Source: Lobosporangium transversale
Taxonomy: Eukaryota; Mortierellomycota; Mortierellomycetes; Mortierellales; Mortierellaceae
Direction of reading: 5' to 3'
DNA length: 64,000 nucleotides
Assembly: GCF_002105155.1 (NCBI RefSeq)
Contig: NW_019028995.1
Location: forward strand, 372,001 to 436,000
The notes beneath the pieces are model-generated. The model was not told the DNA's origin and did not search any database. It saw only the letters and a list, made by a program, of their open reading frames with translations. Shown one piece after another: positions 1,568 through 39,171 of the stretch. Numbering within the stretch: position 1 is the stretch's first letter; the number at the start of each line of letters is the position of its first letter. A program made the position numbers and the translations under genes.

Positions 1568-1598
<31 letters not shown>

Positions 1599-7454: not shown

Positions 7455-9204
7455 TATGGACTAGTGGTTTTGGCGGCAATCCACTTGAGGTTGATTTCTC
7501 TTCTTTTCTACTTTTTTCCTTACTACCTGCTCCGTTTGCTATGAGAGCCATAATCCCTGCTAGGGACTCGTTAGTAGGAGGCATGCCTGGAAAAGCAGCT
7601 GACTTACCTTTGTTTTTGGGCACGTTCCTGTGGAACTCTCCACTCAGTCCTGCTGCCTTCAGGTGCTCGGCTGCGAAGTCCATTCCAAGATGTTGGCTCA
7701 TCATTCCTATTAACATTTGGATTAGTAGACTGTTTTGAGCACGTAGTTGTTGTTGCTCTTCCTGTAGGCGTTCCACTGTATCTACCAGTTGCTGGATTTT
7801 CTTATCGACTGCACCAGTGTTGCTGTTCTTTCCTATGACGTTTGTTTGACCAGAACTTTGGATATTGGTTTTTTCTTCCTGTGCCTTCTGTTGGTTGCTT
7901 TGAGTAACACTTCCACTCTTTCCCGTGGCGGCTTTGGCGTATGAGAGTTGTGGTACAACTTTCAGTGCTCCTCCCTTTTGGTATTCCTTGACAGCTTTGA
8001 TGTGCTGCTTTGTCTCCTGGAGTGCAATGAATACCTCGCATTCCCTCATGATGTGTCCTGGTTTGTGGCATTGTCGGCATCGTTTGTCGTCCTTATCACC
8101 CCAGAAAGTCTCAATGCCCCCGATTTTGACTGGTTTAGTCATAGTTTCCGCCATTGCTTCTGCAGAGGGGAAATACACGAATGCTTCTCGTTGATATTGC
8201 CATTTCTTCCCGTCTTTTGAAAAATAGCGTGGCACTTTGACGAAATTCGCTTGCTTTTCTCCAAGGAGAGGCTCCAAGTCCTTGTCTGTCGTTCCAAAAG
8301 GGAGACCTGAGATTTTTGCGACGTGTGTCAATGTCCACTCGACTCGTTCATTGCCGATTTTGCGGATGCGCGCGAGTTCTTTTCCAATGAAGACGTGCTC
8401 CCGGTTGGCCAATTTGAATTTTGTGACGTCCTCAACATTGTTATAAACTACTGCTGCGGTGATCTTGACTCCCTTGGAGCATGGGCGGGTTGCAATCTTT
8501 TCAATAGTACCGAACTGCAGCATTGCTGACTTGATAAGGAATTCCGGAGTCCTAGGAGCAATACCATAAACCTCCACTGTGCGTTCCAGTTCACGTTCAC
8601 GGGTGTCGGTATTCATTTCAAAAAACAATGGGACTTCGTGTTCATTTCCGTCTTCATCTTTGTGTGTAGCAGTCATTTCCAGGAGCGCTGTCAGGGATGG
8701 TTGATCCTCAACAGCAACACGGAAAGCAGTATATCCATTGACTTTGACCTTGTGTGGTCCTTCTGTGCAATAGATGGCAGCATCCAACAAGACTGTTTCC
8801 AGGTCTTTCTTTTTTTCGGCAACCGTTGTTCCATAAAGGTCCTCGAGGAAGACGCCGGCCGCCTTCAGCCTATCCTTGGTGCGTCTCACTTCCTGCCATT
8901 CTGTGACTCCCACAGTGGCCATTGCGTCATCGTCTTCGTCCATTGCGTCCTGTTCTTGTGTAGCTGCACGCAAGCCATTTGCACCCAGGCTGCGGTTATA
9001 CGAGGGACGGCTCTTAGAGCCCGTTCCCTCGTCAACGCGGCTCCCGCTCGCCTCTATGCCGCTTGCGGGACCGACTTCTTGGTTGTTGGGCTGTCTTTGA
9101 GATCCGATTCCGCTATTTGGAATGCGAGCTCTTTTCGAATGAGGGACATTTCTGTCCAAATTGGGTGGATCATGTTGCTGATTTTTTCCTAATGCAGGTT
9201 CCAT
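7447..9204 (-). CDS. LINE ORF1, zinc-knuckle nucleic-acid binding protein
   Basis: This encodes a protein of about 585 residues that should coat the LINE RNA and act as a nucleic-acid chaperone in the retrotransposition particle. One CCHC zinc knuckle (CX2CX4HX4C, starting CRQCHKPGH) lies near residues 377-391. It is followed by a Gln-rich coiled coil with LQEEQQQLRAQ around residue 500, probably for multimerisation. The first third is acidic and Ser/Pro rich. I chose the ATG at 9204 (MEPALGK); an in-frame GTG at 9225 is less likely as a eukaryotic start. The stop overlaps the start of ORF2 in the octamer ATGAGTAA. The frame is intact in this copy, whereas the sister copy at 31405-33850 is interrupted by a SINE. 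Confidence 0.88.
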   Translation of the reverse strand: MEPALGKNQQHDPPNLDRNVPHSKRARIPNSGIGSQRQPNNQEVGPASGIEASGSRVDEGTGSKSRPSYNRSLGANGLRAATQEQDAMDEDDDAMATVGVTEWQEVRRTKDRLKAAGVFLEDLYGTTVAEKKKDLETVLLDAAIYCTEGPHKVKVNGYTAFRVAVEDQPSLTALLEMTATHKDEDGNEHEVPLFFEMNTDTRERELERTVEVYGIAPRTPEFLIKSAMLQFGTIEKIATRPCSKGVKITAAVVYNNVEDVTKFKLANREHVFIGKELARIRKIGNERVEWTLTHVAKISGLPFGTTDKDLEPLLGEKQANFVKVPRYFSKDGKKWQYQREAFVYFPSAEAMAETMTKPVKIGGIETFWGDKDDKRCRQCHKPGHIMRECEVFIALQETKQHIKAVKEYQKGGALKVVPQLSYAKAATGKSGSVTQSNQQKAQEEKTNIQSSGQTNVIGKNSNTGAVDKKIQQLVDTVERLQEEQQQLRAQNSLLIQMLIGMMSQHLGMDFAAEHLKAAGLSGEFHRNVPKNKGKSAAFPGMPPTNESLAGIMALIANGAGSKEKSRKEEKSTSSGLPPKPLVHNE

Positions 9205-17944: not shown

Positions 17945-19843
17945 TCATATAATGGATGAAGACGCCTCGCTACGAGTAGGGATGAAAATATTCAAGGGCA
18001 CCTTGGAGTCACTGGCGTTGTTACTCTCTCTCAGATCTAGCACCCTTTTCGAGGACATTTGAGACGGCACTTGTTTCATGGCCAATGATTTAACCTGGGG
18101 CTGAGATAACTCCTTGGGGCTGATCTTGGCGACATCGGCATAGGTCTTGTCAAGGTCTATGGGATATTCATCCAATAGCTTATTCACGAAGATGTCAATG
18201 TTTCCCAGCACCTCTTCATCCATCTCCGGAAAGTTTTCCAGGTGGTTATCATCTCTGTACAGCGACAGATACGAACTTGTGCCATATCCTTCCATCGAGA
18301 CTAGAGATAGGTCTCCACCAAAATATCGAGCGATCAATCGTGATAGAGGCAGACCATGCCCAGATCGACTCAGAGGAAGGTTCAAGTAGCCTTTGGTCTC
18401 ATCGGCCAATCCGCTCGCGAGTGCGTTAGAATTTGGATCTGTAAGCAACATACCTACTCCCTGTTCATTCCCAAGTCGTTCATTTTCAGCCTTTGGTGTG
18501 ACTGAAGTGGCAAAGTGCATATAGCTCCAGATCTTGTCTAATTGTGACAAGGCTATCCCGCCGCCTTGATCTGTGATCTTGATTGTCACATCCTCACTAC
18601 CGTCAACTAGTGCCAGTGTGATGGGCGGTAGTTTTGAGCTAGTACCAAGACTTGATAGCTTAGACATTCCAAGCGAAATTGGGTTCCCATCCTTGCTCAA
18701 ATGTGTCTCACAAGTTGCTCTCATGGCATTCTTGAGAAGCTCAAAGATGGTTCGATGGAGAAAATCATCCACATAAGTCATGGTGATGTCTGGGTTAAAC
18801 GTCTGGATCAAGACGGATGGCGCCGGTTGTCCATAGTGTACGGAACAAACACGTTGAGCATCCTTGATAGCACGCTGTGAGGTCGAGAGCAGATTCACAC
18901 GCTGCGCTAAGTTTAACTCGTGATCGCGGAGCGCAAGTTGCTCACCTTCGTAAATGAAAAGGAGCCAGTTAATTTACAGTCATGATGTCACATAGGAACT
19001 TGGAATTTTGAATCAGACCCTACAAAAAATAAACAATAAACATATCCTTACCAATTAAAAGTTGAGTACTAAGGTTGATGGAATAAAATCTATCGAAATA
19101 GGCCTGGATATCCCTGTCCATTTGTGGATCAATGAGCAACCTTTTATTATCAGTAGTTGATTGCAGACTAGCTTTAGTCGAGGTAGCGTCATCTCGATAA
19201 TCTGTGAACTGAGCTTGGAGAGACTTCGTAAACTCTTTGAAACCCTGACTGAGAGCCAACATCTTGATTTTGTGTCGATGGCCTAGGTCTCGGAGCAACA
19301 TTGTAAACTCTTTCTCTAGCTGAGGGCTTGATGGCTTCGGCATCTGGACCAAAAGGCTAATAATATCATTTGTGGGTATGTCACCGATGAATTCATATAG
19401 TTCATCAGCAAGTAAAACAGGAGGTGTAAAAGTATGTTAGAGCGGTTTTAGTAAAGCTTAAAGGACTGAACGTGGAAAACTGGATCAGTTACTCCTAATA
19501 GTAATAAAAGATGGTCATTCGGCTGGTATTCCTTGTCCTACTGCTCTGTTGTATGAGATCATCTTTTTTTTCTTCCACTCTGCAGTATCTTTCCCTTCCC
19601 GATCCAATTCTTTTTCTAAAAATTAAGGCAAACAAGTGCATAAAATACATTGAAGGAACAAACCTAATGTCTTCCAAGTAGGACCTGGCGATGTTCTGAA
19701 AGGTCGGCATCTCTGACATATTAGTCCCCAGCAGTTTTGAGTTCAACATGCTGAGGGCATGCGACAGACGGATAGGGAGTTCTCGATGTAAGAACACTGC
19801 AGGGATGACCAACGCGTCTTGATTATTTGACGCGAGGACATGT
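17945..19843 (-). CDS. Mitochondrial PDK/BCKDK-family protein kinase
   Basis: Family members phosphorylate and switch off the E1 subunit of pyruvate or branched-chain keto-acid dehydrogenase in the mitochondrial matrix. Three exons read cleanly: 19843-19664 (ending YLEDI), 19356-19052 and 18945-17945; phases agree across both introns. The N-terminal four-helix domain shows FLHRELPIRLSH and YSINLSTQLLIGEQ. The GHKL ATPase domain shows the N box (TIFELLKNAMRAT), G1 (DQGGGI) and the hallmark GHGLPLSRLIARYFGGD with SMEGYGTSSYLSL. The 5' exon with the start and targeting peptide is not settled. ATG at about 20114 opens a basic, acid-free peptide (MPMNKTQAALIIK) that looks like a presequence but does not splice in frame. 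Whether the substrate is PDH or BCKDH cannot be decided. Confidence 0.88.
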
Positions 19844-20697: not shown

Positions 20698-21516
20698 TTA
20701 GAAGAGGAATGCAGAAACACCGACTGCAGTTGCCAGGACCAACGTCTTGACAAAAGAGTTAGCGACTATACCGGCATCGCTGTTGAAGCCTTTGCCATGG
20801 TCAGAGTGATCACTGGTGGAAGTGGGTTTAGAAGGTACTGTAGTGGTTCCAGTGCCGTTGCCAGGGTTGGGTGCAACATACTTGAGGTCGCAGAAAGGTG
20901 CAAACTTGGTATTGGAGCACATAGTATTGTAAGAAGGGCACTGCTTCATGTCAGGCATATCGAGGCACAATCCCTTCCATGCCTTAACTTCGTCACAATT
21001 GCTGTAGCCGGATGCTTCAGGCGTGGGGCAAATCTTACAATCGGTCATCATGGGCATCTCCTGACAGATAGAATAAACAGTTCCAGTCACGGTCTTACCA
21101 GAAGGAAGACCGGGGAATGCAGGCTGACCTTTACATGCAGGAATGAGAGAGTTGGCGGCACAAAATATAGAGTAGCTCTTTGAGCAAACAGTACCAGTGA
21201 GAACTGCATCCTCCGTTGGGATGCAGAGCGAGGCCAAGATAGTCATTGGTGCACAATAGGTGGTACTCAGCTTAGAATCAGCTGTGCAGGCAGCGTTGAG
21301 TGAGCATCCAGGCAAGAACGAGTTGATAGCACAGATCTCCTTGATAGCATCCGTAATGGTTGCATTTGGTACAACAAATGTTGAACATACGGCATCAGTG
21401 GGAGTAGCCAAGCAGCCAGAAGGAGCAGTGGCTGGGGGATCGTGAGGATGACCATCATGAGCAGTAGCGGAGGCGACGAAGACTGAGGCAACGGCGAAGA
21501 GCAAAGAGGAGCGCAT
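20698..21516 (-). CDS. Secreted Cys/Met/His-rich protein, probably copper-binding and GPI-anchored
   Basis: A single exon of 272 residues. Residues 1-19 are a signal peptide; cleavage after ASATA would leave a His-rich N-terminus, HDGHPHDPP. The body (about 30-215) has roughly 20 cysteines and repeated Met-Pro-x-Met-x-x-Cys motifs (EMPMMTDC, DMPDMKQC), which suit Cu(I) binding. A second His cluster (DHSDHGKG) precedes a C-terminal hydrophobic tail, fitting GPI attachment to the plasma membrane or wall. The same Cys-rich domain forms the outer part of the Ctr copper transporter encoded divergently 841 bp away (shared PSGCL/VDCL start, MPGCSL and MPDMxQC blocks). Proposed role: extracellular copper capture or buffering. 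This is inference from motifs and neighbours; no close named family is recognised. A TATAAAA box lies 130 bp upstream. Confidence 0.85.
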   Translation of the reverse strand: MRSSLLFAVASVFVASATAHDGHPHDPPATAPSGCLATPTDAVCSTFVVPNATITDAIKEICAINSFLPGCSLNAACTADSKLSTTYCAPMTILASLCIPTEDAVLTGTVCSKSYSIFCAANSLIPACKGQPAFPGLPSGKTVTGTVYSICQEMPMMTDCKICPTPEASGYSNCDEVKAWKGLCLDMPDMKQCPSYNTMCSNTKFAPFCDLKYVAPNPGNGTGTTTVPSKPTSTSDHSDHGKGFNSDAGIVANSFVKTLVLATAVGVSAFLF

Positions 21517-21646
21517 CTTTCACTTGTTTCGTTTGTTTTGGGTTATGGTTGGTGAGTTGTTGTTAGATCTTGTGCAAAAGAAAGGAAGAGATGAATGAAA
21601 ATAGAGAAAAATGCTGAAGTGGTCATGGAATGGAGGAGGACGACAC

Positions 21647-21655
21647 TTTTATACC
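21647..21655 (-). promoter_or_regulatory. TATA box of the Cys/Met/His-rich gene
   Basis: GGTATAAAA on the minus strand, about 130 bp upstream of the ATG. The other two genes of the proposed copper cluster carry the same element. Confidence 0.6.
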
Positions 21656-21673
21656 GAAATCCTTGGTTTAATA

Positions 21674-21680
21674 TTTGCTC
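21674..21680 (+). promoter_or_regulatory. Possible copper-response element TTTGCTC
   Basis: TTTGCTC lies 19 bp upstream of the TATA box. It matches the core bound by fungal Mac1/Cuf1-type copper regulators. Only one copy was found in the shared intergenic region, so it may be chance. Confidence 0.3.
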
Positions 21681-22271
21681 TCAAGATGACAGACATAGAT
21701 GAATGTCAAGGGGTGTTTAATATCTTGATGGATTTGACAGGTGGTGTGGGCTTCTGTTAAAAGTCGCAAAAATGCTCTCATTCTTGGTGTGATAATTTGC
21801 TTTTATTGAATTGGAGTGAGTATATACAACATATGAAAAAAAAAAATGACAGTTGAATGTTTGACATACCGAAGAGGTACTCGTTTTCCTGGGTCCTCAA
21901 TTTTCCTGATGTTCCATTTTGACAAACATCAGCCTGTTTATTTTTGTGGACGCACTCTTTTTGACAGGTGAAACCGGCATGCATCCATCTCTCAGTTGTT
22001 CAACTGTCATTATTTTGACATTTTCTTCTTCTTCCTTTATTCCCCCCTTTCTTTTTTCCTTCACTGCGTTATTCCTGTCTCTTTATTTACATATATTATA
22101 TAATACTCTTTCTATTCCCCCTAGATTTCCCTGTCTTTTTCTATTTTCTTCTTTAATAGTTGTAGTTATTCCTGTTGTTCTCATTGCTTATTCATCTGTA
22201 CATCTCTTTCGTGGCGTTTTTGACATTCAAGATCATTCCACTTTTTTTTTTTTTTTTTTTTTTTTTTTGGC

Positions 22272-22280
22272 GGTATAAAA
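22272..22280 (+). promoter_or_regulatory. TATA box of the Ctr gene
   Basis: GGTATAAAA, 78-86 bp upstream of the ATG and just after a 27-nt T tract. Confidence 0.6.
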
Positions 22281-22357
22281 CCAAGTCCTTTTCGAATTCT
22301 CTTTGAACCCAAATTCTTGTTCATTTAATTCACTCCCTTTAAAAAGAATAGTAAGGA

Positions 22358-23575
22358 ATGAAAGCCTTATCATTCCTTAGAACCAGCCCCCACTTGGCGT
22401 TGTTGTTTCTTCTTGGAACACTCTCTATTACCCATCATGTCCAGGCACAGAGTGTCGATTGTCTAATTACACCTTCCGATCCTTCTTGCGCTTCCTTTGA
22501 GCTGCCGGAGGCGACAATCAAAGCTGATCTAGATGGCCTCTGCACCCAAATGCCATACATGCCTGGTTGCTCGCTCTATAAATCATGTCAGGCTGCTTCC
22601 AAGGCTGATCAGTGGTGCACACCTTTCTCAGTATTGGCAGACATCTGTGCCTTGGATATGCCTAACATGCGCGACTGTAAGAATTATGTTGCTCTCTGTG
22701 GCGCTGCCGTGAATCAGACCTTGGCCGCTCGGCCTGCTATCTGCAAGAAGGCCCCCATGATCTCGGCGTTCCCGACCACCAAGAATGCCTCAGCTCTCGT
22801 CATTGACATTTGCACAGAGATGGATATGGCCGGTTGTGAGCGATGCCCCAAACCCAAGCCCGATACCTATGCGGCTGATTGTGATACCCTCGGTACTTAT
22901 GCGATCCTGTGCAAGGCCATGCCAGACATGCACCAGTGTGCTGCTTGGAAATCCATGTGTTCCTCTTCTTCTGATACTGCCTCAGTTCTCAACTTCCAGG
23001 ATTCCGAATACTGCGCTGCTGGTGTCGGTAGTCCTGATATGAACCCGCCTGCCATGCGTATGTACTTCCATTTAGGCTTCTCGGATTATGTCTTATTTGA
23101 GAAGTGGGTTCCTCGAAATCAGAGCCAGTACATTGGTACTTGGTTTGCACTCTTCTTCCTCACACTTTTTTTCCAGACTGTTCAGACCTACCATAACTGC
23201 CTCGAGGCCCAATGGGCGGAGGAGTATATAGCCGAAAGTGAAGAAGTTTCAAAGTCGGATTCTTCCATTCCTTTGGCTTCTAGCAAAGGCTCGCGTTCCA
23301 ATCCAATCCTCCTCCAATGGATGCATATCTGGCGCCAACCTTGGACGCTGAAGGAGGCAAAGCAAAACATGTTCCGTGCTGTGCTGACTTTTATCGAAAC
23401 TACACTTGGATATGCACTCATGCTAGTTACTATGACCTTTAATGTGCCTTTGTTCTTTGCCGTCATTCTCAGCCTAACCGTTGGCTCAGTAGTCTTTTCA
23501 AGGCAACGTTCAGTAGTTATGATCAAATCCAACGCCAATGCTGCCAGTGGAACTGGTTGTGCTGGCTGCGGTTAA
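22358..23575 (+). CDS. Ctr-type copper transporter with Cys/Met-rich extracellular domain
   Basis: A single exon of 405 residues; the trimeric family imports Cu(I) across the plasma membrane. Residues 1-31 are a signal peptide. Residues about 35-225 are a Cys-rich domain with the recurrent motif MPxMxxC (QMPYMPGC, DMPNMRDC, AMPDMHQC), homologous to the neighbouring secreted protein. The Ctr domain begins near 230 with MRMYFHLGFSDYVLF. TM1 is GTWFALFFLTLFF. TM2 carries the essential MxxxM (ALMLVTMTFN). TM3 is LSLTVGSVVF, where Ser replaces the first Gly of the usual GxxxG. The tail ends GTGCAGCG, a Cys pair suited to handing copper to cytosolic chaperones. Most Ctr proteins have only a short Met-rich ectodomain, so this architecture is unusual. 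Confidence 0.92.
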   Translation: MKALSFLRTSPHLALLFLLGTLSITHHVQAQSVDCLITPSDPSCASFELPEATIKADLDGLCTQMPYMPGCSLYKSCQAASKADQWCTPFSVLADICALDMPNMRDCKNYVALCGAAVNQTLAARPAICKKAPMISAFPTTKNASALVIDICTEMDMAGCERCPKPKPDTYAADCDTLGTYAILCKAMPDMHQCAAWKSMCSSSSDTASVLNFQDSEYCAAGVGSPDMNPPAMRMYFHLGFSDYVLFEKWVPRNQSQYIGTWFALFFLTLFFQTVQTYHNCLEAQWAEEYIAESEEVSKSDSSIPLASSKGSRSNPILLQWMHIWRQPWTLKEAKQNMFRAVLTFIETTLGYALMLVTMTFNVPLFFAVILSLTVGSVVFSRQRSVVMIKSNANAASGTGCAGCG

Positions 23576-23874
23576 AAGCACATCTTACTTTCTTCGTAAG
23601 CTCCACTATAATCCGAATGTAAATAAATGTCATATTCAATATCAAAATAAAAATAAAGTGCATGTCTTACCTTTCTATATTATGACCTCTGAGTCGGATA
23701 AAACCACCTATTACGCTTTGATTCATACTGTCGGACAAATCAAATACATGTATGCATGCGTCTTATTTTCCAATATGAAGAACGTGAGGGTAGTCCAGAC
23801 TGCCGTACATTTACCACTATCCGTTACCTTGGCGTAGTTCTGGATTGCATGCTAATAGGACATTTACAATAATA

Positions 23875-24160
23875 TACAGTGCATATCAAAATTAGCAAAA
23901 ATTTTACCTTCTTTATTTCCTCCGCTTTTACTGCATGTTCAGAGCGAACTGGATTGGAATAAAGGACTAAACGAACAAAGCTTCATTAAAAAATAAATAA
24001 CGTTCGTAACCGGCCACCACAGTCCCCTGACATGAATTCCATTGAACACATGTGTTGAACTCAAGAGAAGGCTTGGAAAGTATTTTTTCTTTTTTTTTAC
24101 AGCCTTTGACAACAATGACAAAACTGTAAAATATGAATGTATTCGCCAAAATTAACGTAG
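23875..24160 (+). pseudogene. Decayed Tc1/mariner transposon fragment
   Basis: Starts TACAGTGCATATCAAAATTA, a typical Tc1-like terminal repeat, and has a weaker inverted partner near 24137-24150. Around 24005-24065 the + strand reads RPPQSPDMNSIEHMC then a stop, matching the conserved QSPDLNPIE block before the third catalytic acid of Tc1 transposases. Only a few hundred bases remain, with stops; not functional. Confidence 0.65.
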
Positions 24161-25431
24161 ATGACTCCTTTCTTCTAGCACTAGATACTAAAATGGATCA
24201 ATCATTGATGAAATAAGACACGTGTATAATGAATATATTTGTGTATATCCATCGTATCCATAGTGAACTGACTTATTTTATTTCTTTACAAGGCCATCTC
24301 GCATTTTGTCTTTACTGTTTGAGAAGATATCACGAAGATATCACACGGCCATTGATTAAAACACCCTCTAGATTTTATTAGGGATATATGCAATTGAATA
24401 GTGTCGTTCATCCTATCACGTATGTATATATATATCATGGCATGTTTCCTTCTATCTGTTGTAAGGATTTCCCTGTTTAGCTCTGATAATTCTATTAACT
24501 TTTTAGATAGATGGCCCATTAAACCAAGGGAGATCTGATTAAGCCAGAGAGCAATCTATAAAGAATGTTAAAGTACAATGTCAAGGAAGTCAAATACCTA
24601 TCCCGAGTCAGTAAGCATGTTCGTGTACATGCACATAAAAATATTATACATGTACTTGTACTTGTATGGCGGAAGAATCTTCCAGACAACACAATAGGTT
24701 AATTTTTGACTTACTTTTGACAAACTTTAAAAGAATATTCATGTACCTGTCAAAACGCTGACTCGGGACCGACCGCCCATCAGTACCTTAACCCATACAT
24801 GTACAGGCTTTTTGTGATGTTTTTCTTTTTTCTACTTTCCTTTTGATGAAATGACATCCTTAATGGTAAACCCCGCATCGATTAAAATTTCTTTTTACTG
24901 TATGGTCAGCTGTGTGAAGGAGATCTATTGGTGTTATTGTTCAAGTTATTGATCTGTCTCTTATGGACGTATCGATATGAATTCACTAACGACAGTTATA
25001 AGAGTTGCTCGAACAACAAAATAAAGTATAGGGCCAATTTTGGCAGACAGGGGTAGAGGAAGGAGGAGGACTTTCAGGTACTACCATGGCCGTGTCAATA
25101 GTTTATATTTGTCAAGTTGATAAAGAGAGTTGACAGACTGAGTAAATGTATTATTTAAGGTTTGACAAAGAGACAAATCCTTGTCTCCTTTGAGGTACAC
25201 AATTTTGACGTTGACACAAACAAACAACGTGCCTTCTATTTGTTTTCCGTTGCCCTATACATTCAAAAACAAATACATGTAGCACTTTAGAAACTCTTGT
25301 TGTAGAGCTTGAGCCAATCCAGAAGCAACAAGGCCACTAATATATTTTTCCCAAGGTTATCAGCACTAGATAAGGAATGAAGATGCAAGAATTAGTTACT
25401 ATCGCAAAAAGCATCATCGTCAATAGATTCA
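24161..25431. other. Intergenic, upstream of the YcnI-like gene
   Basis: No gene supported. Contains an 11-bp inverted repeat pair, TCCCGAGTCAG at 24601-24611 and its complement at 24758-24768, enclosing about 145 bp. The 3' part is the promoter of the YcnI-like gene. Confidence 0.45.
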
Positions 25432-25439
25432 GTATAAAA
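25432..25439 (+). promoter_or_regulatory. TATA box of the YcnI-like gene
   Basis: GTATAAAA (in AGTATAAAATGG), about 128 bp upstream of the chosen ATG. Confidence 0.6.
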
Positions 25440-25560
25440 TGGTCCCTCTCCCGCTTTCTCTTTCTTTACTGTCGTGCCACATTTTGCTACCACTTCCTCA
25501 GTCATATATCCGTCTTCTATATCTCTTTACTGTAATACATCACATCAGTTTTTTTCAACC

Positions 25561-26205
25561 ATGAAGTTCGTTGCTGTCGCCTCTGCTGCCATCTCAACTA
25601 TCCTCTTCGCCACCCCGTTGGCCGAAGCCCATGTTACTGCCAACCCCTCAGCTGCTGTCTCAGGGTCCTACTTTCAGACTAGTTTTCGTGTCCCTCATGG
25701 TTGTGATGGTAATGCTACAAACCTGGTCATTGTCGAAATCCCCAAGGGTGTTTCCTCAGTTAAGCCCCGCCCTCTCTATCCTTGGAATACTACCATTTCC
25801 ATGGTACCTCTCGATACCCCCATCACCACACCTACGGGCACCATCAATACCACCGTTGGTTCTATTACCTGGTCCAATGGTCTAATCCAAGATAACATGT
25901 ACGAAGATTTCGGATTGCAGTTCAAGTTACCAACTCAGGAAGGCCCTCTCTACTGGAAGGTCTACCAGCATTGCGTCAATAACGAATGGAACAACTGGAC
26001 CAGCGTCCCTGACGCCAACGGAAAGACTGATGGTTTCCCTGCAGCCGTTATTACTCTTTCCAATTCCACAACTACCACTGGCCCTGGAGGTGCTTCCCCT
26101 TCCGCTAGCAGCAAGCCTAGTGCTGCTGTCGCCGCCTTCCAGAGCTTGAACTTCGGCCGCGTCGCTCTTATCAGCTCTGGTGCCTTCTTGGTCGCTCTTA
26201 TTTAA
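25561..26205 (+). CDS. Secreted YcnI/DUF1775-domain protein, predicted copper-binding, GPI-anchored
   Basis: 214 residues from one exon. I chose the ATG at 25561 because it opens directly on a signal peptide (MKFVAVASAAISTILFATPL); an upstream in-frame ATG would add 29 residues before it. Cleavage after AEA leaves His as the mature N-terminus (HVTANPSAAVSG). In bacterial YcnI this His with a conserved Trp forms a Cu(II) site. The family blocks are all present: FRVPHGCDGNATNLV, VKPRPLYPWN, ITWSNG, a YEDFGLQFKLP strand, LYWKVYQHC and a final PAAVITL. The Ser/Ala-rich C-terminus ending in a hydrophobic stretch suggests GPI anchoring. Located 2 kb downstream of the Ctr gene on the same strand. 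Role in copper acquisition is inferred. Confidence 0.88.
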   Translation: MKFVAVASAAISTILFATPLAEAHVTANPSAAVSGSYFQTSFRVPHGCDGNATNLVIVEIPKGVSSVKPRPLYPWNTTISMVPLDTPITTPTGTINTTVGSITWSNGLIQDNMYEDFGLQFKLPTQEGPLYWKVYQHCVNNEWNNWTSVPDANGKTDGFPAAVITLSNSTTTTGPGGASPSASSKPSAAVAAFQSLNFGRVALISSGAFLVALI

Positions 26206-26517
26206 GAAAAATAAAATAAAAAAAGCCTTACCTATATACCATGCGAAGATAAACAGGCAGCGAGTGGAGAAGAAAGGAAGAGGACGAGAAGGAGAACGCA
26301 TTATACATCCTATCATAGACTATATGGCGCTGCTTCATATACAACGCTTCTATTATCCATAATGCTCACACCTTGAACGTAATACAGTTAATAATAACAA
26401 TGGTAATAATACAAACCTGGTTGCCATTCAAAGTTTGGTACTCATCTGAATGCGATAATATTTATTTTCTCCTTGCGTACCACAATTTATTTATCACATA
26501 TGACACAGAACTGCAGG

Positions 26518-26647
26518 TCAAGACGGTGAATAGTATAGAAGCCAGAGGAAAAAAATCAAAATGAATGCTGCAATAATGATCTTGTATTTACGGAGCAGAC
26601 GAATTGAACGCTGTTCCAATCCGATTTCGTCTCGAAGCCGATTCAGC

Positions 26648-26692
<45 letters not shown>

Positions 26693-29600
26693 GCAGTTAG
26701 TGTCCCTGCATAGAGCAGATAAAGCGAAGCTTCGGAAAAAAAAGAGAGACCTACATTAAAGCGTGCAGCGCCCATGATCTTCGTGCAGAGCACAATTCTC
26801 TCGTTAACATCCTTGAGCTTCGCGTCTACAGTTTCGGCTAACGTCTTGCCAGTGGAAGGTGATGGCCTAAGGGCTAACTGAATCTCTTGATTATCGATCG
26901 CTCGTAGCATAGCGGTCATCAATTTCTAATACACATATTGTACAGTAAAAATGATTATTCATTCATAGTCACGGCATTCAATTATATAAGACTTGCAAAT
27001 GTACTCACTTTAGCACCATCATCCAATTTATTCAACTTATCGAGACACATATCAATCTGCTGTGATACGTTCTGGATATTTGCATAGCTTGCTTGAAGTT
27101 TGCCTTCTTGTTGTGCCAGACGGAGATCAATCATATCAATCAACAAATCCATATCCCTAGTTTTATCGCGAAATAAAGGAGTAAATAAATTTGTGATAAA
27201 AATAAAGTATTGATAAGGGACACTCTACATGTTCCGTCGCATACTCAGAGATGTTTTCGGACTGGTGTTTCTTGGAATCCATAAATGCATCAAAGCCTAT
27301 CCCTCCATGTGGCTTGGATGAATCAATAGTATGGTCGCTCTCCACGTCTAAAGCGTCAAAAAATAGCAGCAATGTAAAAAGGGAATAAGATTAGCAACGC
27401 AACTACATAAATATTTTTCAGCCGCCATTGATTCCTTGAATGCTATTAACCATACCTCCGTGGTCCATGACACTTATGGCAATCCAGTTTATAAATTCGC
27501 ACTTCAGCTTAACGGAAGGGGACTCGAGGCACATAATGTTAGTCCTATCACCATTGAGCATAGAAAATATCGCTGTGGCATCTATGAAATTACAAAAAAA
27601 AGAAAGAAATTATATGTGGTGTCAACAGCTAAGGAATTTTCATGGACACCCATCGCTTGTCGTGTTTTATATTATTAAAAAATACTTACGATTATCATTC
27701 ATAATGGACACATCAACTGCGGTATCGAATTTTTCGTATTCGAGCCCACGGGCAATTTCACCAAGATAGAGCTCCAGGCCAAATGTTGCTTGTCGAAATT
27801 CCTCGCGATATTTTCGCTCCATCTCTTTCCATTTGGCAATTTCGGCTGTCTGTAGCTGTAGCTGTTCCAGTCGCTGCTGCTCCTTAACGCTTGTCCACGA
27901 CCATTTCCTGCTGAGGAGCTGTGCAGAGTACGGTATTGTCTTGGATAAATTATTGTTGTTGTTATTACTTATCTGTCGGACTGAAAATGGTGGCTCATGG
28001 TGTTCTGTAGGATCGCTTCTAGACCGATCAGGTGTTCCTGCAATGCCTCTGAGAAACAAATTACTGCTGCTTATGGGGCTGTACCGCTGATCCAAATACC
28101 CAAGTGCCCGTCCAGAAGATATCCCAACAGGGGAAGCTATGGGACTTTCACTTAGGGTTCCTGAGCTTGTCATGCGCGTCTGATCCCAAGCTAATGCAGA
28201 TTTGACGATCTTTTCTCCTAGATTTTGCTTGTCTCGTTCACTGCCGCTCAGTCGAACAGACTCTTTTGTTGGCTTAGAGAGGGCAGTGCTTAAAATTCCG
28301 GTTTCTAGTTGTTCAGACGTATCATCTTGACCTCCATCATTCGGCCAGAAAGAGGCAATCCGGCTCTGTTCTTGTTCTTCTCTTAATGTTTTTGCTTTTT
28401 TCTCTAATGCACGGTAGGTCACATATGCCTCCCGAAAATATTGTGCACATGCAGGCTCCAATTTCAAGGATAGCTTTTTATATTCGACATTTTTGCCCAG
28501 AACTCGAAATATATAGTATCCTTGGAACTTTGAGTTTTCATAAGATCTGAAAAGAAAAGATTTTGTCCCTATGATGTCCAGGCCATTCGCTCTCGACTGC
28601 TGAGGCATTGATTGAGGCTCGTAATTAGTGAGCGTACCAATAGGTGTACTGTAGATAGAAAATGGTATGACATGTGGTGCCAAAGGGCCTTGTTGTATTT
28701 GAGTATATGGATGATGTTGCTGTTGGTACGTTTGCGATTGGAAACGAGTTTTGGACGCGGATAGCGTTGCAAAGGCATTGACAAAGCTAGTTGGTAATGG
28801 TTCTAATTCCACCAAGAGCAAGTTTGGATCTGGGTTCGCCTGACGTGCTTCCTTTAGTGCAGGCGAAATGAGTGCTTCCAGGCACCAGGTCACCGGTATC
28901 TGATGGCGAACTTCTTCTCCGACAGACCGACTACGATGGCGGTGGTGGAAGCTATGGAGAAACCCATGATGGTGACGGTGACGGCTCGACCGGGATGTTG
29001 ATGAGTCTTCGTCATCTGTAGCAGCTGTCGCGAAAGGAGTAAACATTCCGGTGGCAACAGAGTGAGTTTTTTTTGTGAAGCGCCTCTTACGCCGCCCTGA
29101 ACCCTTCAGCTTGAAGCCTTTGGAAGTCGAGGGTTGATCATCTCCCGAAAGGAAGTCTCCAAATAAGGGGAATGTACTACGAGTTTGTATTGGTTTCATG
29201 ACACCGTTTTGAGTCCCATGCAGATCTCGAGCAGATGGTGCGGTTGAGAGGGGCGCAGTTGAATGCTGATTTGAGAAGCCCACGCTCTTTAATAATAAAC
29301 GTACTGCTTTATTATTTTCGTGCCCTTGCTCTGATCCAGACAAGCTACCGCCTTTACCTTGCGTTACTGGGCCTTGCCCATTGTTGAAGTGAGTTATAAT
29401 GCTGCTGGGGCCGTTTCGTGGTGGGAGTTGTGGTGGGAGACCAGAGTCGGTATACTTTAGTTTCGAGCGTGTAGACAATGAGGCTTTTTTGCTTTCTGGT
29501 GCTGATGGAAATCTATGTGTGATGCCTCCAACATTAGATATGAGATCTGATTCAGGTTCTAGAGGGAAATTCATCAATCATGCTTTCCTTAGCTTATGTT

Positions 29601-30675
29601 TAGGAAGATCTAATTGTTTAAACATAAAACTCCCACTCATACTTGCATATTTCCACAAACCCTTCTCTCAAAACCACATCCATAGATCCATACACCTTTG
29701 TGATTCTTACCAAATGTAGCCTCCGAGTCACTTTCTCCACTTGTGATGAAGGCATTTACTCCACCATTATCACGCGAACTCGATCCTTGTTTTCTTCGAA
29801 GCTTTCTAAACCTGTTTTTGATCCCTTTCTTAGGTGTTTTATTTCCTACTATTTGACCTTTTCGCGTGTTTGTCGTAAACAGGGGTGGGCTGTTATTGAT
29901 ATCTGCAGGTAACTTAGCGAACGGCACTGATGAAATAGACAGGTCGGCTAGAGGTTCCCGCAAAAGATATAGAGCGTGGTGGCGGCATCATGCTCACATT
30001 TGAAAAAGAATGATAAAGAGGTCGCATAAGCTCCGGAGACTGTGATCTCTTCATTTGACTGCCATTATTATTGCCAGAGAGAGCAGGAGGCACAGTAGGA
30101 CTTTCAGATATTGTTCCTGATGCAAAGTTATGTCTCGCGATAGCATCTACAGAGGAAGGTGTAGTAATACCACCTGATGGCGGTGTTGATTGTGCGTGAG
30201 GGCGAATCGTACTTGGTAAGAATGAGGCGCTGCAATAAGGGTGGAATGCACCAGGCGGGACCGAGATGGGCGAACTTAGTAAGCCTCCTGATACCGTATT
30301 CCGCAAGGTTATAGGATCAGTTTTAATCAAAGTTGCAGAGAAAGACCGAGAGAGCTGCCTTTTAGCATGGGGCCGTACTGTATCCGATATTGATGGTTCA
30401 ATGGTTTCTGTAGGTGTAGGCTGGAGCGTAGCTTTAGCTTTAGCTGTTCCAGAATTCTGCTGGACACAACATATACCATCTGGTTGACTGTTGATTGTAT
30501 CCGTTGGATTAGGTAAGTTATTTTTATTAGAAGAAGAAGAAATAGAAGTAGGAGAACGGCCAGCAAGGGAAGTTGTGCAAGAAGACTGTGGTCCAGCTAA
30601 AGGATCGGACATGGTGGTAGTATCAGGCGAAGTGGGGACCCGTGGAGGCCAACCACCTAAGTAGCCATTATGCAT
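26518..30675 (-). CDS. Unrecognised multi-exon, C-terminally membrane-anchored protein
   Basis: I do not recognise this family. One minus-strand gene of eight exons: 30675-29998, about 29915-29711, 29558-27690, 27581-27456, 27347-27245, 27156-27009, 26925-26755 and 26646-26518. Phases agree across all junctions except exon 1/2, whose acceptor is unsettled. The product is roughly 1,000 residues. The N-terminal third is Ser/Thr/Pro-rich and disordered; KNRFRKLRRKQG is basic. The middle has an ordered-looking segment (FQGYYIFRVLGKNVEYKKL) and a long coiled coil (QQRLEQLQLQTAEIAKWKEM). The last exons are helical and end in a single transmembrane segment with a very short tail (KYKIIIAAFILIFFLWLLY-YSPS), so it is probably tail-anchored facing the cytosol. 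The last intron contains a T-run/A-run palindrome. Confidence 0.7.
26648..26695. repeat. Poly(T)-poly(A) palindrome in an intron
   Basis: About 20 T residues are followed directly by about 24 A residues, next to the final exon of the tail-anchored-protein gene. The transcript could fold into a long A-U hairpin immediately beside the splice acceptor. Confidence 0.8.
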
Positions 30676-31092
30676 CGCAGTGGAAAGTAGACGAGGATAG
30701 GAGGCAGTACTTGTAATGGAAGATGATGCACAAAGTTACAAGCATGCAACGTAATGGTTGTCTGCACTGGTCTAAGAGCTAAGGTGAGAAATGAGAGACG
30801 AAAGGAAGTGAATGCCAAAAAAAAAAATAGAAATATATATTTAATGTTCTACTTACTGCATATGAGAGAGCTCAATTCAAATGATGTTTCATTATCAAGT
30901 AATGTTATTCGTGCCCTGACAAACAACAGGAACCATACGAGTGACTGCAGATGTAGCAGATATGCCCTATCTATCGATTTGACTTTAGTTGCAATTCAAG
31001 AAAAGAACCATGTTACTCCGTGTCCAGGGTGTCCAGGAATACTTTTTGCTCTCAAAAATAGAGAAAAAAATATCATACCGGATACAGGTATT
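30676..31092. other. Intergenic between the tail-anchored gene and tRNA-Arg
   Basis: No coding sequence supported. Contains the T-run (TTTTTTT read on the minus strand, about 31066-31072) that should end transcription of tRNA-Arg. Confidence 0.5.
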
Positions 31093-31165
31093 AGCCCAAC
31101 GCGGGGATCGAACCCGCAACCTTCAGATTAGAAGTCTGATGCTCTACCGATTGAGCTAGCCGGGC
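31093..31165 (-). tRNA. tRNA-Arg (anticodon UCU)
   Basis: A complete 73-nt cloverleaf, intronless: acceptor GCCCGGC with GTTGGGC, D arm GCTC..GAGC, anticodon stem CAGA/TCTG with loop CTTCTAA (anticodon TCT), and T arm GCGGG-TTCGATC-CCCGC. Decodes AGA. A T-run follows about 20 nt downstream. The mobile-element stack begins 105 bp upstream of its 5' end. Confidence 0.95.
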
Positions 31166-31404
31166 AAGGTGTCCTGCGCATAGTTTTGGATCTCCTTAAA
31201 ATCTAATTACCTTGTGTTATCATTATATCCAGTAGTATTGTGTTTGGATATAGTGGCTTCCATACATTAGGTAGTATACTCGTCAGGGCACCAAAACTCT
31301 TCTCCGTACACCATCGGATACGCTACATTTACACATTCCCTCTCTATACACACCCCTTCCACACCCCCTGTTAGCGCACAAGAGTGCCAACGACATCACT
31401 CATC

Positions 31405-33850
31405 ATGGAACCTGCATTAGGAAAAAATCAGCAACATGATCCACCCAATTTGGACAGAAATGTCCCTCATTCGAAAAGAGCTCGCATTCCAAATAGCGGA
31501 ATCGGATTGGCTGAGTAGTATACTCGTCAGGGCACCCCCCTGTCTAGCCCAGGGGCCGGGTTCGAGTCCTGGTTAAGGCACATAAAGTGAAGCAAACATG
31601 TGCCAGGTCAGGGATTTGCTTGAGTTTTTATACTTTCTCTCCGAGACAGCCTAGTGTTCTCCGCTAAGGCTAAGATCGTGGGTGCACTACCCTAAGTCGC
31701 CTGGCTGGCCACATGTCTTAGGTATATATTCCACCCCCCAGCCGAACCAGCGGTACATCTGGCAGCACATCCCCCCATCCACCCACTTGACTAGGACAGC
31801 GATGATCACAAAGTTTGACGGAGTCCAAAATAGAAATTTCAGACCAATTCCGCAAGATTTGGGTCCACATGCCAGTGGATTTGATCTAATAGAAAAAATT
31901 AAAAAAGTCGTCCTTAGCTAGAGTCGGCACGCCAGCCTCCGCAGCTTTTCACGGGCGCAACAGGCCACATCGGAAGGATGGACTTCGAGTACCGATCACG
32001 GTGTACATTGGTAGAGAAAAACATGGATACGAATTGGCTCTTCACAGCCATCCCGTGCGAACTTTGAGAGTTTCGCTTGTTTCATAGTTGAGGGCGATAT
32101 CATTACTTTAGAGCGAGATTATGAAATAAAATTCCTCACCTCTGTGGGTTCTTGTTAACAGGAAAAAAAAAAAAATCCAAATAGCGGAATCGGATCTCAA
32201 AGACAGCCCAACAACCAAGAAGTCGGTCCCGCAAGCGGCATAGAGGCGAGCGGGAGCCGCGTTGACGAGGGAACGGGCTCTAAGAGCCGTCCCTCGTATA
32301 ACCGCAGCCTGGGTGCAAATGGCTTGCGTGCAGCTACACAAGAACAGGACGCAATGGACGAAGACGATGACGCAATGGCCACTGTGGGAGTCACAGAATG
32401 GCAGGAAGTGAGACGCACCAAGGATAGGCTGAAGGCGGCCGGCGTCTTCCTCGAGGACCTTTATGGAACAACGGTTGCCGAAAAAAAGAAAGACCTGGAA
32501 ACAGTCTTGTTGGATGCTGCCATCTATTGCACAGAAGGACCACACAAGGTCAAAGTCAATGGATATACTGCTTTCCGTGTTGCTGTTGAGGATCAACCAT
32601 CCCTGACAGCGCTCCTGGAAATGACTGCTACACACAAAGATGAAGACGGAAATGAACACGAAGTCCCATTGTTTTTTGAAATGAATACCGACACCCGTGA
32701 ACGTGAACTGGAACGCACAGTGGAGGTTTATGGTATTGCTCCTAGGACTCCGGAATTCCTTATCAAGTCAGCAATGCTGCAGTTCGGTACTATTGAAAAG
32801 ATTGCAACCCGCCCATGCTCCAAGGGAGTCAAGATCACCGCAGCAGTAGTTTATAACAATGTTGAGGACGTCACAAAATTCAAATTGGCCAACCGGGAGC
32901 ACGTCTTCATTGGAAAAGAACTCGCGCGCATCCGCAAAATCGGCAATGAACGAGTCGAGTGGACATTGACACACGTCGCAAAAATCTCAGGTCTCCCTTT
33001 TGGAACGACAGACAAGGACTTGGAGCCTCTCCTTGGAGAAAAGCAAGCGAATTTCGTCAAAGTGCCACGCTATTTTTCAAAAGACGGGAAGAAATGGCAA
33101 TATCAACGAGAAGCATTCGTGTATTTCCCCTCTGCAGAAGCAATGGCGGAAACTATGACTAAACCAGTCAAAATCGGGGGCATTGAGACTTTCTGGGGTG
33201 ATAAGGACGACAAACGATGCCGACAATGCCACAAACCAGGACACATCATGAGGGAATGCGAGGTATTCATTGCACTCCAGGAGACAAAGCAGCACATCAA
33301 AGCTGTCAAGGAATACCAAAAGGGAGGAGCACTGAAAGTTGTACCACAACTCTCATACGCCAAAGCCGCCACGGGAAAGAGTGGAAGTGTTACTCAAAGC
33401 AACCAACAGAAGGCACAGGAAGAAAAAACCAATATCCAAAGTTCTGGTCAAACAAACGTCATAGGAAAGAACAGCAACACTGGTGCAGTCGATAAGAAAA
33501 TCCAGCAACTGGTAGATACAGTGGAACGCCTACAGGAAGAGCAACAACAACTACGTGCTCAAAACAGTCTACTAATCCAAATGTTAATAGGAATGATGAG
33601 CCAACATCTTGGAATGGACTTCGCAGCCGAGCACCTGAAGGCAGCAGGACTGAGTGGAGAGTTCCACAGGAACGTGCCCAAAAACAAAGGTAAGTCAGCT
33701 GCTTTTCCAGGCATGCCTCCTACTAACGAGTCCCTAGCAGGGATTATGGCTCTCATAGCAAACGGAGCAGGTAGTAAGGAAAAAAGTAGAAAAGAAGAGA
33801 AATCAACCTCAAGTGGATTGCCGCCAAAACCACTAGTCCATAATGAGTAA
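31405..33850 (+). pseudogene. LINE ORF1 disrupted by a SINE
   Basis: The frame opens at the same ATG as copy A (MEPALGKNQQ) but is broken at codon 35 by the 668-bp SINE at 31508-32175. After the insertion, from 32176, the remaining frame is intact to the stop at 33850 and matches copy A, including the CCHC knuckle (CRQCHKPGH at about 33217-33260) and the coiled coil. A shortened protein lacking the first 35 or more residues might be made from an internal start, but this copy is probably dependent on ORF1 supplied by other copies. Confidence 0.85.
31508..32175 (+). mobile_element. tRNA-headed SINE with LINE-derived tail, inserted in LINE ORF1
   Basis: A 668-bp non-autonomous retroposon flanked by a perfect 20-bp target duplication TCCAAATAGCGGAATCGGAT (31488-31507 and 32176-32195). 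The head has Pol III A-box-like (TGGCTGAGTAGT) and B-box (GGTTCGAGTCC, about 31558) sequences. The unique body starts near 31650 (TTCTCCGCTAAGG). The last 230 bp resemble the LINE 3' UTR: GCGCAACAGGCCACATCGGAA versus GCGCAACAGGCCACGTCGGAA, then GGACTTNGAGTACC and ATCATGGATACG. It ends with hairpin ACCTCTGTGGGT (32138-32149), TTCTTGTTAACA and poly(A). It probably uses Pol III for transcription and the LINE enzyme for mobility. A second, split copy lies at 39734-39798 plus 42647-43160. Confidence 0.88.
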
Positions 33851-36800
33851 TGCAAGCACTCAAAATAGACAGGACAGTACTAGATCTAATAGCAATGCTA
33901 TTAAATTTGGATCATTTAACATACGGGGTGCGTTAGAAGCTGGGAAAATAGAAGCGTTATGTGAATATGGTGATATGAAAGATTTAGATATGATAGCACT
34001 CCAAGAAACCAACATGCATGTTGGAGGGAGTAAAATGGCAAGAAATTTGAAACAAACTAAATATAAAATGTGGTGGGTGAGTGGTAAAGAAGGTGCAACA
34101 CAGGGAACAGGGGTTGGGCTTTTGATCGCTCAGCATTGGTTCCAGTACGCTGCGAGAACTTCATCTTGTGGGAGCAGAGGCCAAGCGAGAGATTTCAACT
34201 TTCCTGGGGGATTTAAAATCAGAGTAATTAACTGCTACCTACCAAGCGGAAGGGAAGATGAAGCAGAAGTAATTACTAAATGGATACAAAAAGAATATAA
34301 CGACGCGAGAGAAGAAGGGAGGGGTATAATCATTCTTGGGGATTTCAATGCTACTAGGAACCCCCGGCTCGATCGACGACGAGAGAACGCAACGAGTATA
34401 AGACCAGAATCGGCACTACTTCAATGGATGGAGACGCAGCCACTTCATGATGTTTTCCGCGCTCAACACCCTCTTCGTGAAGACTATACCTGCCAGAATA
34501 CGAGCCGTATAGACATGATCTTTGTATCTAGTGTATTCACGGATAGGCTTCTCAGGGTCAAACACAAATCATTGGATGGTATTGTGGCGTCAGACCACAA
34601 AATGGTCACTCTAGAAATGACACTGCACCGCCTTATTCAACAACCACTTCATCACATCATTTACAAAAAACCCAAGGGCTACAAATTCTTACTTCGCGAT
34701 GCCAGCAACGACGATTGGGAGAATTTTGAGAACGGTGTGAATATAAGAATTGGAGACGGCAGTGAATCTTCTACAATGGGCCTACGGAGAGCCCAGAACG
34801 ACGATGAAAAGGATCTCTTGACGCCAGAAGACCTTCAAAGAATCGACATTGACCTTGCATGGAAATGGTATTCAAAGCTGCTCATAGAAAGCGCCAAAGA
34901 AAACTTGCCAGGAAGAGTGGTTGGTCGGTCTGGAGTGAAGCCAGAACAAGAATTGTGTCTCCGCCACCTCATACGTGATCTCGCTAAAATTAAAAAATTG
35001 GCAAATCAAACCCGCAGAGGATTATCAACAGTACAAAGAGACGCAAGATGGACAACACTGGTAGAGCAGCAGAAAAAATTTAATAAGAATGCTGAGTGGT
35101 TGAGGCTGCAAGGACAAGGGGAGATCGAAGGCCTCACTACTATACCGGACACGAAGGATAGCGACGATGTATGGAAAGATTGGGTAAGAGGAGTAAAGCA
35201 CAGATGGACAGAGTCAATATCATTTTTACAGGCGACAAGGAAGCTGGAAAAGACAAGGACGATGAATGGCCTGATAGAGAAACGCTGTGGAGAGTTGAAG
35301 TCGGCAACAGGGAAAATGATAGACAAAGTGCTGGGACGTGGCGGAGGTAAAGTGACAATAGACCGGATTCAGGACGACGAAGGCGGTGTCACAGTGAATA
35401 TTCTAGAGCCACAGCAAGTTAAAGAGAAGGTACGGGCATGGTTCGACAAGTGGCACGGACGTAGGCCGTCAAAACCGCTAGAGCCGGGTTCGAGATGGCA
35501 GAAGCAATATAGCCCTCAGAGGTGGATCAAGAGTGAATGGTACGACGGTCTGATGGATCCACCAAGCAGAAATGAGTTTTCAGCTGTGGTCCTGGATGCA
35601 CCCAAAAACAAGGCAGCTGGTGTGTCAGGCATTACGAACGAAATGATCCAACACCAAGGACCGCAGGGGCTCTTTATCCTCTTCCAAATCATAAGTGCCA
35701 CTATCGTGCAAGAAGACGTCCCCAAGGATTGGAAGACGGGGCTCCTCTATTGCATACCAAAAGCTCCAGAATGGTCAGGAAACATGGCAGAGGTAAGGCC
35801 GATAGCTTTGTTGGAGCACGCACGGAAAATAATGTTTGCAGTAATAACAAATAGGTTAAGCGCGATCATGGCCAGGCACGATATTCTACGAGGACCAAAC
35901 TTCTCTGTTCTTAAAGGTACTACCACTAAGGATCCAATCCATATCCTGCAAGCGGCAATGGAAGACGCAAGAGAGTTCAAGAAAGAACAGTGGATTGTGT
36001 TCCAAGACATGAAACGGTGTTTCGACTCTGTCAACTGCGCCCCCGATGGGATGCTTTCTCGCGGACTAAGACGGCTCCAGGTCCCTGAACAGTTCATACG
36101 CCTATGTGAAAACATCGCCATTTCCAAAGTGAACAGGGTGATTACTGAATACGGACCAACTGACGAGTATCATCCAGAGTGCGGTTTGGATCAAGGTGGA
36201 GTGGAATGTCCGCTTTTATGGAGAATAGCATATGATGCACTCCTGTGTGAAATTATAGACAGTAGCACTGGATATAGTCTAGAGGGACCAAGAGGGACAC
36301 CATCAGTTGCTGGCCTTGCTTTCGTGGATGATACTACATGGATATCGGACTCCAAAGCACATATGCAGGAGATACTTGACATTGCAACGACATTCTTCAT
36401 TCTTAACGGGGTGGAAGTGAACGCCAAGAAAACGCAGGTCATCTGTATCAACAGCAAGCAGGATAGGAGGAGCACGCTGAAATTTGGGACACCTACAGAA
36501 GAGATCCGACCAGTGGAAAAGAATGAATCGGTACGGATTCTTGGTGTTTGGGTCACAGCAACAGGAAATCCAACAGCAACACAGCAAATAGTGGAGCAGG
36601 AAATAGAAACGACCTGTAACATTCTCCGGTCCAAAGCCCTGACAGATCGGCAGACAACGTATATTGTCAATAATGTGCTCATCCCAAAGGTGCTGTATAG
36701 GATTTCGGCCCAAATGTTGCCACCAACGTTCCTACAGAAGATGACTGGTAAGTATATGTCACTGTGTAAGCGGAAAGCACGTATGCCATCAACTACGCCA

Positions 36801-38867: not shown

Positions 38868-39171
38868 AGGAAAGCGTTGAAAGCAGTGCAGGAGCAAGCA
38901 CAAAGGGCCAGAGAGAGGTGTAGACCCACCAAGGACAAAAGAGCCAACTTTTACTGCGGCAGAGGAGGACTACATTTGGAAAACTCTGGAGATGCATATC
39001 GATGGTGTGCGAGAAGTACGACGCCATGGTGATAGGAACGACGGTGATGAGGAAGAGAGAGAGCACACACCAGATTGGTCTGTGCAGGACATTTACCATT
39101 GACTTACGCCCAAGTCCATTGCTCAGAGTTGGAAAGTTGGCTTCAAGACAACAACAAGGATAGCTACATAT

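Follow-up and report, generated by a model that had tools for sequence, protein, structure and literature searches.

Two described copper systems come closest to the locus reported here, a three-gene cluster at positions 20698–26205 of a 64,000-nucleotide stretch (the window) in the 42.7-Mb assembly of the fungus Lobosporangium transversale. In Bacillus subtilis ycnKJI, a tethered YcnI protein accompanies an importer, YcnJ, that has an extracellular copper domain of its own; Cu(II) moves between YcnI and the YcnJ CopC domain, and losing either protein harms growth at low copper, according to the available excerpts of PMC12154828. In Cryptococcus, the glycosylphosphatidylinositol (GPI)-anchored copper protein Cbi1 works with Ctr1; Cbi1/Bim1 proteins, which have a histidine brace, serve Ctr and are induced there in copper shortage, and the accessible part of the same source calls their mechanism unclear (PMC9258870). 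A further YcnI family member, PcuD of Bradyrhizobium, is tied to copper in the available text of PMC8424229, and p80 is termed a putative, or a CTR, copper transporter in excerpts of PMC7262877 and PMC5770829. In the Lobosporangium cluster, as in those of related soil fungi of the Mortierella group, an importer gene stands beside one for a free-standing version of that importer's outer domain and one for a copper-binding type of protein otherwise known from bacteria. The three genes probably form a functional unit in which scarce copper is caught at the cell surface and passed to the importer. By analogy, the roles are comparable to those of bacterial YcnI/YcnJ and of Cryptococcus Cbi1/Ctr1, and are filled by other parts. 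The conserved trio would represent an independent case of extracellular copper capture for Ctr, with named parts, a candidate motif and a proposed relay. Neither a eukaryotic DUF1775 protein that accompanies a Ctr importer, nor a fungal YcnI, nor a Mortierella copper-uptake cluster is described in the open-licence titles and abstract openings that literature searches returned, a body of text that leaves most subscription journals outside.

The three genes encode a secreted Cys-rich protein (CRP; 272 amino acids), the importer (Ctr; 405 amino acids) and a secreted YcnI/DUF1775 protein (YcnI; 214 amino acids), and each is a single open frame in the open reading frame (ORF) listing of the cluster. 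A previous reading of the DNA from its letters (the original prediction) had placed all three correctly in coordinates, strand and length. Its gene identities were borne out by Pfam: Ctr matches PF04145 (E = 2.5e-29; 103.2 bits against a cut-off of 25.3; profile positions 1–151 of 151) and the third gene matches PF07987/DUF1775 (E = 7.5e-35), likewise above its cut-off. None of the three proteins matched an NCBIfam profile. It had also reported no other intact gene between them, which agrees with the remaining ATG-initiated frames of at least 80 amino acids: two of 99 amino acids, both without support, of which one (21979–22278) is the only frame lying wholly between genes and the other (23538–23837) overlaps the end of Ctr. 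The features of the locus are as follows.

20698–21516, minus strand: CRP, 272 amino acids, with a GPI-like tail at the C terminus (ORF and alignment of homologues; both the signal peptide and the GPI signal were assigned by eye, without a predictor).
21457–21459, minus strand: codon of His20, the likely first residue of mature CRP (sequence; His at this place in 25 of 26 N-terminally complete rows).
21647–21654, minus strand: TATA-like GTATAAAA of CRP, 138 bp before the ATG (motif search).
21733–22225, plus strand: six TTTGACA in the same direction, in the 841-bp promoter region shared by CRP and Ctr (scan and simulations).
22273–22280, plus strand: TATA-like GTATAAAA of Ctr, 85 bp before the ATG (motif search).
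22358–23575, plus strand: Ctr (SLC31-type) copper importer with a Cys/Met-rich outer domain, 405 amino acids (ORF, Pfam, homologues).
22454–23020, plus strand: Ctr outer domain, approximately residues 33–221, homologous to CRP, with three MxxMxxC and one MxMxxC (alignments).
23060–23497, plus strand: Ctr membrane domain PF04145, residues 235–380 (Pfam).
25093–25216, no strand assigned: a 124-bp stretch upstream of YcnI with five TTGACA, one being TTTGACA (scan and simulations).
25432–25439, plus strand: TATA-like GTATAAAA of YcnI, 129 bp before the ATG (motif search).
25561–26205, plus strand: YcnI/DUF1775 secreted protein, 214 amino acids, likely mature from His24, with a GPI-like tail (ORF, Pfam, fold; signals by eye).
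25630–26058, plus strand: DUF1775 domain, residues 24–166, with His24, His46-Gly47-Cys48, Cys138 and Trp146 (Pfam, alignments).

Set beside ycnKJI, the importer here is Ctr rather than CopD, its extra domain is alpha-helical and Cys-rich rather than CopC and also occurs free, and the fungal YcnI has a GPI-like tail and no Glu ligand. The Cryptococcus system differs in another way: none of CRP, Ctr and YcnI is BIM1-like (no match at E up to 10, in a HMMER search whose filters drop most weak matches), the genes here are clustered, and a BIM1-like gene (of the LPMO-like family PF20238) is found separately, unlinked, at C95:809670–810278, as two matched pieces with a GPI-like tail judged by eye. 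Because the genome has this separate gene, the cluster is an addition to the BIM1-like system and no substitute for it. The Cryptococcus counterpart of the BIM1-like gene is a copper-starvation gene in the accessible text of PMC9258870.

The three-gene cluster is conserved in related Mortierellomycota genomes. Homologue searches, which require shared 5-residue words and can therefore miss distant relatives, returned 29 rows for CRP, the window's own included, with every named row from Mortierellomycota and four rows without a name. The 51 Ctr rows came from Mortierellomycota, chytrids, Basidiobolus, Conidiobolus, dictyostelids and unnamed or metagenome sources. The 53 YcnI rows comprised the window's own, 35 from named Mortierellomycota (one being a second copy on contig C96 of the same assembly), two close nameless rows and 15 distant bacterial or nameless ones; all named non-bacterial YcnI rows are from Mortierellomycota. 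Linkage was tabulated for rows with a locus tag, the window itself excluded; contigs of equal size were counted as the same contig, contig values are the longest contig of each protein cluster, and GBAus27b was entered by species name. All three proteins were found in 11 other genomes, and they share one contig in 10 of these, with all three tags known and consecutive in seven (EDD11, BGX27, BGX28, BGZ76, BGZ58, BGZ83 and BGW42). The remaining genome is BGW38, where a contig of 2.2 kb carries CRP, apart from the adjacent Ctr and YcnI genes. A further 16 genomes have two of the three proteins, on a shared contig with tags one or two apart in 10. The tag order is CRP–Ctr–YcnI in six of the consecutive sets and YcnI–CRP–Ctr in Actinomortierella wolfii, and the linkage therefore survived rearrangement. 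The original prediction had proposed a search for conserved clustering in related genomes, and these counts bear out the clustering.

CRP and the Ctr outer domain, which had been described as sharing a domain, are homologous (34% identity over 197 columns, E = 7e-28). No Pfam family matched CRP, and neither a Pfam family nor a PDB fold matched the outer domain; the comparison brings to light this Cys/Met outer domain of Ctr proteins. In the Lobosporangium assembly, no copy of the domain was found beyond those in CRP and Ctr, and it was not found at the three further Ctr loci (C44, C117 and C24), by a search that scores best candidates only. In the Ctr search, the domain was also present on Ctr proteins of chytrids, Basidiobolus, Conidiobolus and dictyostelids. 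The dictyostelid rows P0059 and P0068, which we take to be p80 relatives, carry the same Cys/Met outer domain, although the CRP and YcnI searches returned no dictyostelid row; in P0059 (Dictyostelium citrinum), this domain occurs in two tandem copies. A Powellomyces relative of the outer domain (P0079), named as an FZ domain by its source, had no FZ profile or fold match. In the membrane domain, Ctr has MRM before the first transmembrane helix (TM1), MLVTM, and a third motif that reads SLTVG as opposed to GxxxG (for example, GLTVG) in the orthologues shown; these stretches were compared with the hallmarks of Ctr/SLC31 proteins, a Met pair before TM1, MxxxM in TM2 and GxxxG in TM3.

Eighteen Cys are invariant among 26 aligned CRPs and 13 across 42 CRP and Ctr outer-domain sequences. 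After the likely signal peptide, His comes first in 25 of the 26 rows with a complete N terminus, including that of the window (HDGHPHD). Two MxxMxxC motifs are present in all 26 CRP rows examined, and the Ctr outer domain has three in 26 of 28 Mortierellomycota rows (28 of 29 rows examined); of the Met motifs in the Ctr domain, CRP retains two and lacks the rest. A tree of 16 CRPs and 26 selected outer domains, which carries a long-branch warning and omits Basidiobolus P0065 and P0067 as unfit for the cutting pattern, gives CRP as a separate clade with a stem of 2.75, and it does not support a recent origin of CRP by copying of the Mortierellomycota Ctr outer domain.

The main rival explanation is buffering against excess, in which YcnI and CRP mainly keep copper from the importer, as a guard or a store, and the genes answer high copper or both states. 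His- and Cys-rich proteins with GPI-like tails could be wall-bound buffers, and at least two His lie within the last 70 residues in 21 of 29 CRP rows. However, the linkage is to an importer and not to an exporter, no array of many metal sites is evident, and CRP copies the importer's own outer domain; we regard buffering as rather unlikely. CRP might instead be a protein partner of Ctr in assembly, trimer capping or trafficking, carrying no metal, with YcnI a separate copper protein linked only by shared regulation. The common Cys framework would suit domain–domain packing, and the lack in CRP of all but two Met motifs fits such a role, but the nearly constant N-terminal His and the MxxMxxC pair in every row argue the other way, and this alternative seems improbable to us.

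The preferred reading, copper capture for the importer, draws further on the third protein. The AlphaFold2 model of YcnI has a mean predicted local distance difference test (pLDDT) score of 76.9, with 127 of 214 residues at 90 or above. By Foldseek it matches Bacillus YcnI, both copper-bound and apo, and a Nocardia relative (E = 3e-9 to 7e-9), with template-modelling (TM) scores to the YcnI structures of 0.83–0.86 by target length. His24 is present in at least 90% and Trp146 in 35 of 35 YcnI rows, and both are invariant in an 18-row alignment. The position of the Bacillus Glu falls in His46-Gly47-Cys48, for which Cys138 is a possible disulfide partner. In a tree of 40 rows (16 fungal and 24 bacterial), the fungal sequences form a single clade (100/100) on a long stem, which, with the distribution of the named rows, suggests that fungal YcnI was probably acquired once from bacteria. 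This tree, which is midpoint-rooted and in which five bacterial rows without His-Gly-Cys are intermixed with rows that have it, points to no particular donor. Bacterial DUF1775 proteins without the Glu ligand resemble the fungal ones in having His-Gly-Cys, which occurs in 19 of the 24 bacterial tree rows (with the second Cys in all 17 of the 19 whose letters were shown) and in the matches of all 11 genomes that have YcnI among 142 searched (the class of an alphaproteobacterial record). They differ in that the fungal sequences are a separate long-stemmed clade encoded beside Ctr. Among bacterial and other relatives, a record titled Actinobacteria (L046) has a CopC–CopD protein directly before the YcnI gene, a frame that encodes a TonB-receptor domain adjoins that gene in L047 and L048, and in P0132 (jgi-sourced, 317 amino acids) DUF1775 is fused with the copper chaperone domain PCuAC, a further tie of the family to copper hand-over.

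The upstream regions of the three genes share a motif, which had been spotted by eye before a scan of 6- to 8-mers in which the CRP–Ctr intergenic region and the 600 bp preceding YcnI were set against the rest of the window (all but 20.6–26.3 kb). TTTGACA ranks first among the 7-mers (7 copies against 0.21 expected, P = 2.8e-9, 8,192 tests) and TTGACA the top 6-mer (12 against 1.26, P = 1.1e-8, 2,048 tests). Six TTTGACA run in one direction through the CRP–Ctr region, a number reached in none of 2,000 first-order Markov simulations, and the 600 bp upstream of YcnI hold five TTGACA against 0.54 expected (0 of 2,000 simulations). The copies of the motif have differing flanks and thus do not look like units of a repeat. 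The window as a whole holds 18 copies where 15.6 are expected, hence no excess, and 10 of the 18 are in the two intergenic regions; what is unusual is its clustering, not its number. Among 1,559 overlapping 800-bp background windows, which include the other Ctr loci, none has three TTTGACA, 0.8% have at least two, and the maximum for TTGACA is three. The shared TTTGACA suggests one regulator for the three genes. The original prediction had instead singled out GTATAAAA upstream of each gene; its positions hold (138, 85 and 129 bp before the ATGs of CRP, Ctr and YcnI), but it is TATA-like and, with P = 3.65e-5 among 32,768 8-mers and five copies in the window against 2.5 expected, is not outstanding after correction and says little. 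That a divergent promoter and a quiet region merely hold the genes together, the copper theme being coincidental, is very improbable: a divergent region of 841 bp can by itself hold a pair such as CRP and Ctr, but YcnI lies 1,985 bp beyond Ctr with its own motif cluster, and the linkage outlasted the change of order in A. wolfii.

Once the motif had been fixed, twelve other copper loci were examined for it: the BIM1-like gene, the three Ctr loci and eight ferric-reductase loci, a ninth reductase match (L075, which adjoins L070) being omitted. At the BIM1-like gene, the approximately 490 bp that separate the first domain match from the neighbouring frame (the start codon is unfixed) hold two TTTGACA and one TTGACA, and a third TTTGACA is 825 bp up, within the neighbouring frame; with 12 loci examined, this is suggestive only. 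At one ferric-reductase locus (L067, on C91), the 800 bp before the open-frame start contain four TTGACA, including one TTTGACA, which is above all background windows; this reductase is a possible partner of the cluster. A second (L074) has three TTGACA and the other reductase loci have fewer. A search for copper-fist regulators gave two weak partial matches only. A genome-wide regulon defined by a spaced-triplet pattern was rejected: of 50 matches, 46 fall in one array on C99, and outside it the pattern is non-significant beside a reversed control with three. The remaining matches are two overlapping in the Ctr promoter and one each on C39 and C52, where nothing of note was seen by eye in the nearby frames (no family search was made). 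The array itself (G000:C99:149822–152322) is a long tandem repeat of units with TTTGACAAGGTGAAA or TTTGACAAGGTGGAA.

We consider it reasonably likely that the cluster serves to capture copper at the cell surface and import it, feeding Ctr in copper shortage. From gene order and its conservation, domain homology, the YcnI fold, the conserved residues and the shared motif, we infer metal binding, a reduction step, transfer and copper regulation as follows. YcnI and CRP would be secreted and probably retained at the membrane or wall by GPI-type tails, each binding copper at a site around its mature N-terminal His. YcnI would hold Cu(II), like its Bacillus relative, and CRP would be the middle carrier, using MxxMxxC motifs of the kind present in the outer domain of Ctr. 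Copper would then be reduced, for example by a ferric-reductase-type protein of the genome, and would enter the pore by way of that domain's Met motifs. A TTTGACA-recognizing factor may switch the three genes together, most likely in copper shortage.

Several observations weigh against this account. In 7 of 27 genomes, at least one of the detected genes lies apart from the others, although the contigs known there are of at most 25 kb; among these genomes are the six two-protein genomes without a shared contig (BGW39, BGX29, BGZ65, BGZ74, BGZ90 and BGZ94). TTTGACA alone occurs once before YcnI, which 344 of 2,000 simulations equal, and it is not known as the copper box of other fungi. The other Ctr loci have 0, 1 and 1 TTTGACA in approximately 800 bp upstream, C44 having three TTGACA, the background maximum, and TTTGACA is clustered neither there nor at seven of the eight ferric-reductase loci. 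Finally, the Glu ligand of Bacillus YcnI (Glu50) is absent, the stretch reading HGC and not SEK. In the accessible text of PMC8424229, the Bacillus ligands are the N-terminal His27 and Glu50, Trp137 adjoins the metal, His, Glu and Trp occur together in approximately 60% of the family, and the DUF1775 members that have His and Trp and no Glu come mainly from proteobacteria. Because the Glu is not conserved, the predicted Cu site of fungal YcnI must differ partly from that of Bacillus. The Cu(II) site through an N-terminal His that had been predicted is thus favoured by the fold, His24 and Trp146, but not by the second ligand. The wider interpretation, of secreted proteins that trap copper and feed the Ctr channel, is partly supported: it gains from the conserved cluster, the shared motif, the YcnI fold and the N-terminal His of YcnI and CRP, and has to be amended for the missing Glu and for the BIM1-like gene elsewhere.

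A more specific version is offered tentatively: a new Mortierellomycota hybrid machine for copper uptake in which a bacterial YcnI of the HGC class, acquired once, was combined with Ctr and its detached outer domain under one promoter code, with a relay YcnI→CRP→Ctr. The His of HGC may there complete a two-His brace that replaces the Glu site.

The absence of introns from the three genes, also part of the original prediction, agrees with the orthologues. The neighbours had been called intron-rich, which fits a kinase at 17948–19436 (two domains in two frames) but not the long open frames nearby (a basic helix–loop–helix protein of 410 amino acids and a frame of 636), and the contrast is weaker than was stated. 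CRP is 100% identical to the deposited protein BCR41DRAFT_54260 over 78% of its length; the deposited 225-amino-acid model (P0001) has a different C terminus, present in none of 25 aligned homologues.

A LINE-like (long interspersed nuclear element-like) element, with endonuclease, reverse transcriptase and RNase H within one 1,676-amino-acid frame, is present as two inverted 7,540-nucleotide copies that are 100% identical, at 1582–9121 (minus strand) and 32176–39715 (plus strand). The end of contig C96 is 99.75% identical to window positions 24068–33730 (9,676 alignment columns), and the 4 kb of C96 past the LINE copy has no match to the window. This overlap includes the C96 copy of YcnI, which has an internal stop and was treated as a redundant assembly or allele and not as a paralogue, a structural variant being also possible. 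The inverted LINE-like copies flank a 23-kb segment that contains the copper cluster and could give rise to inversion or misassembly.

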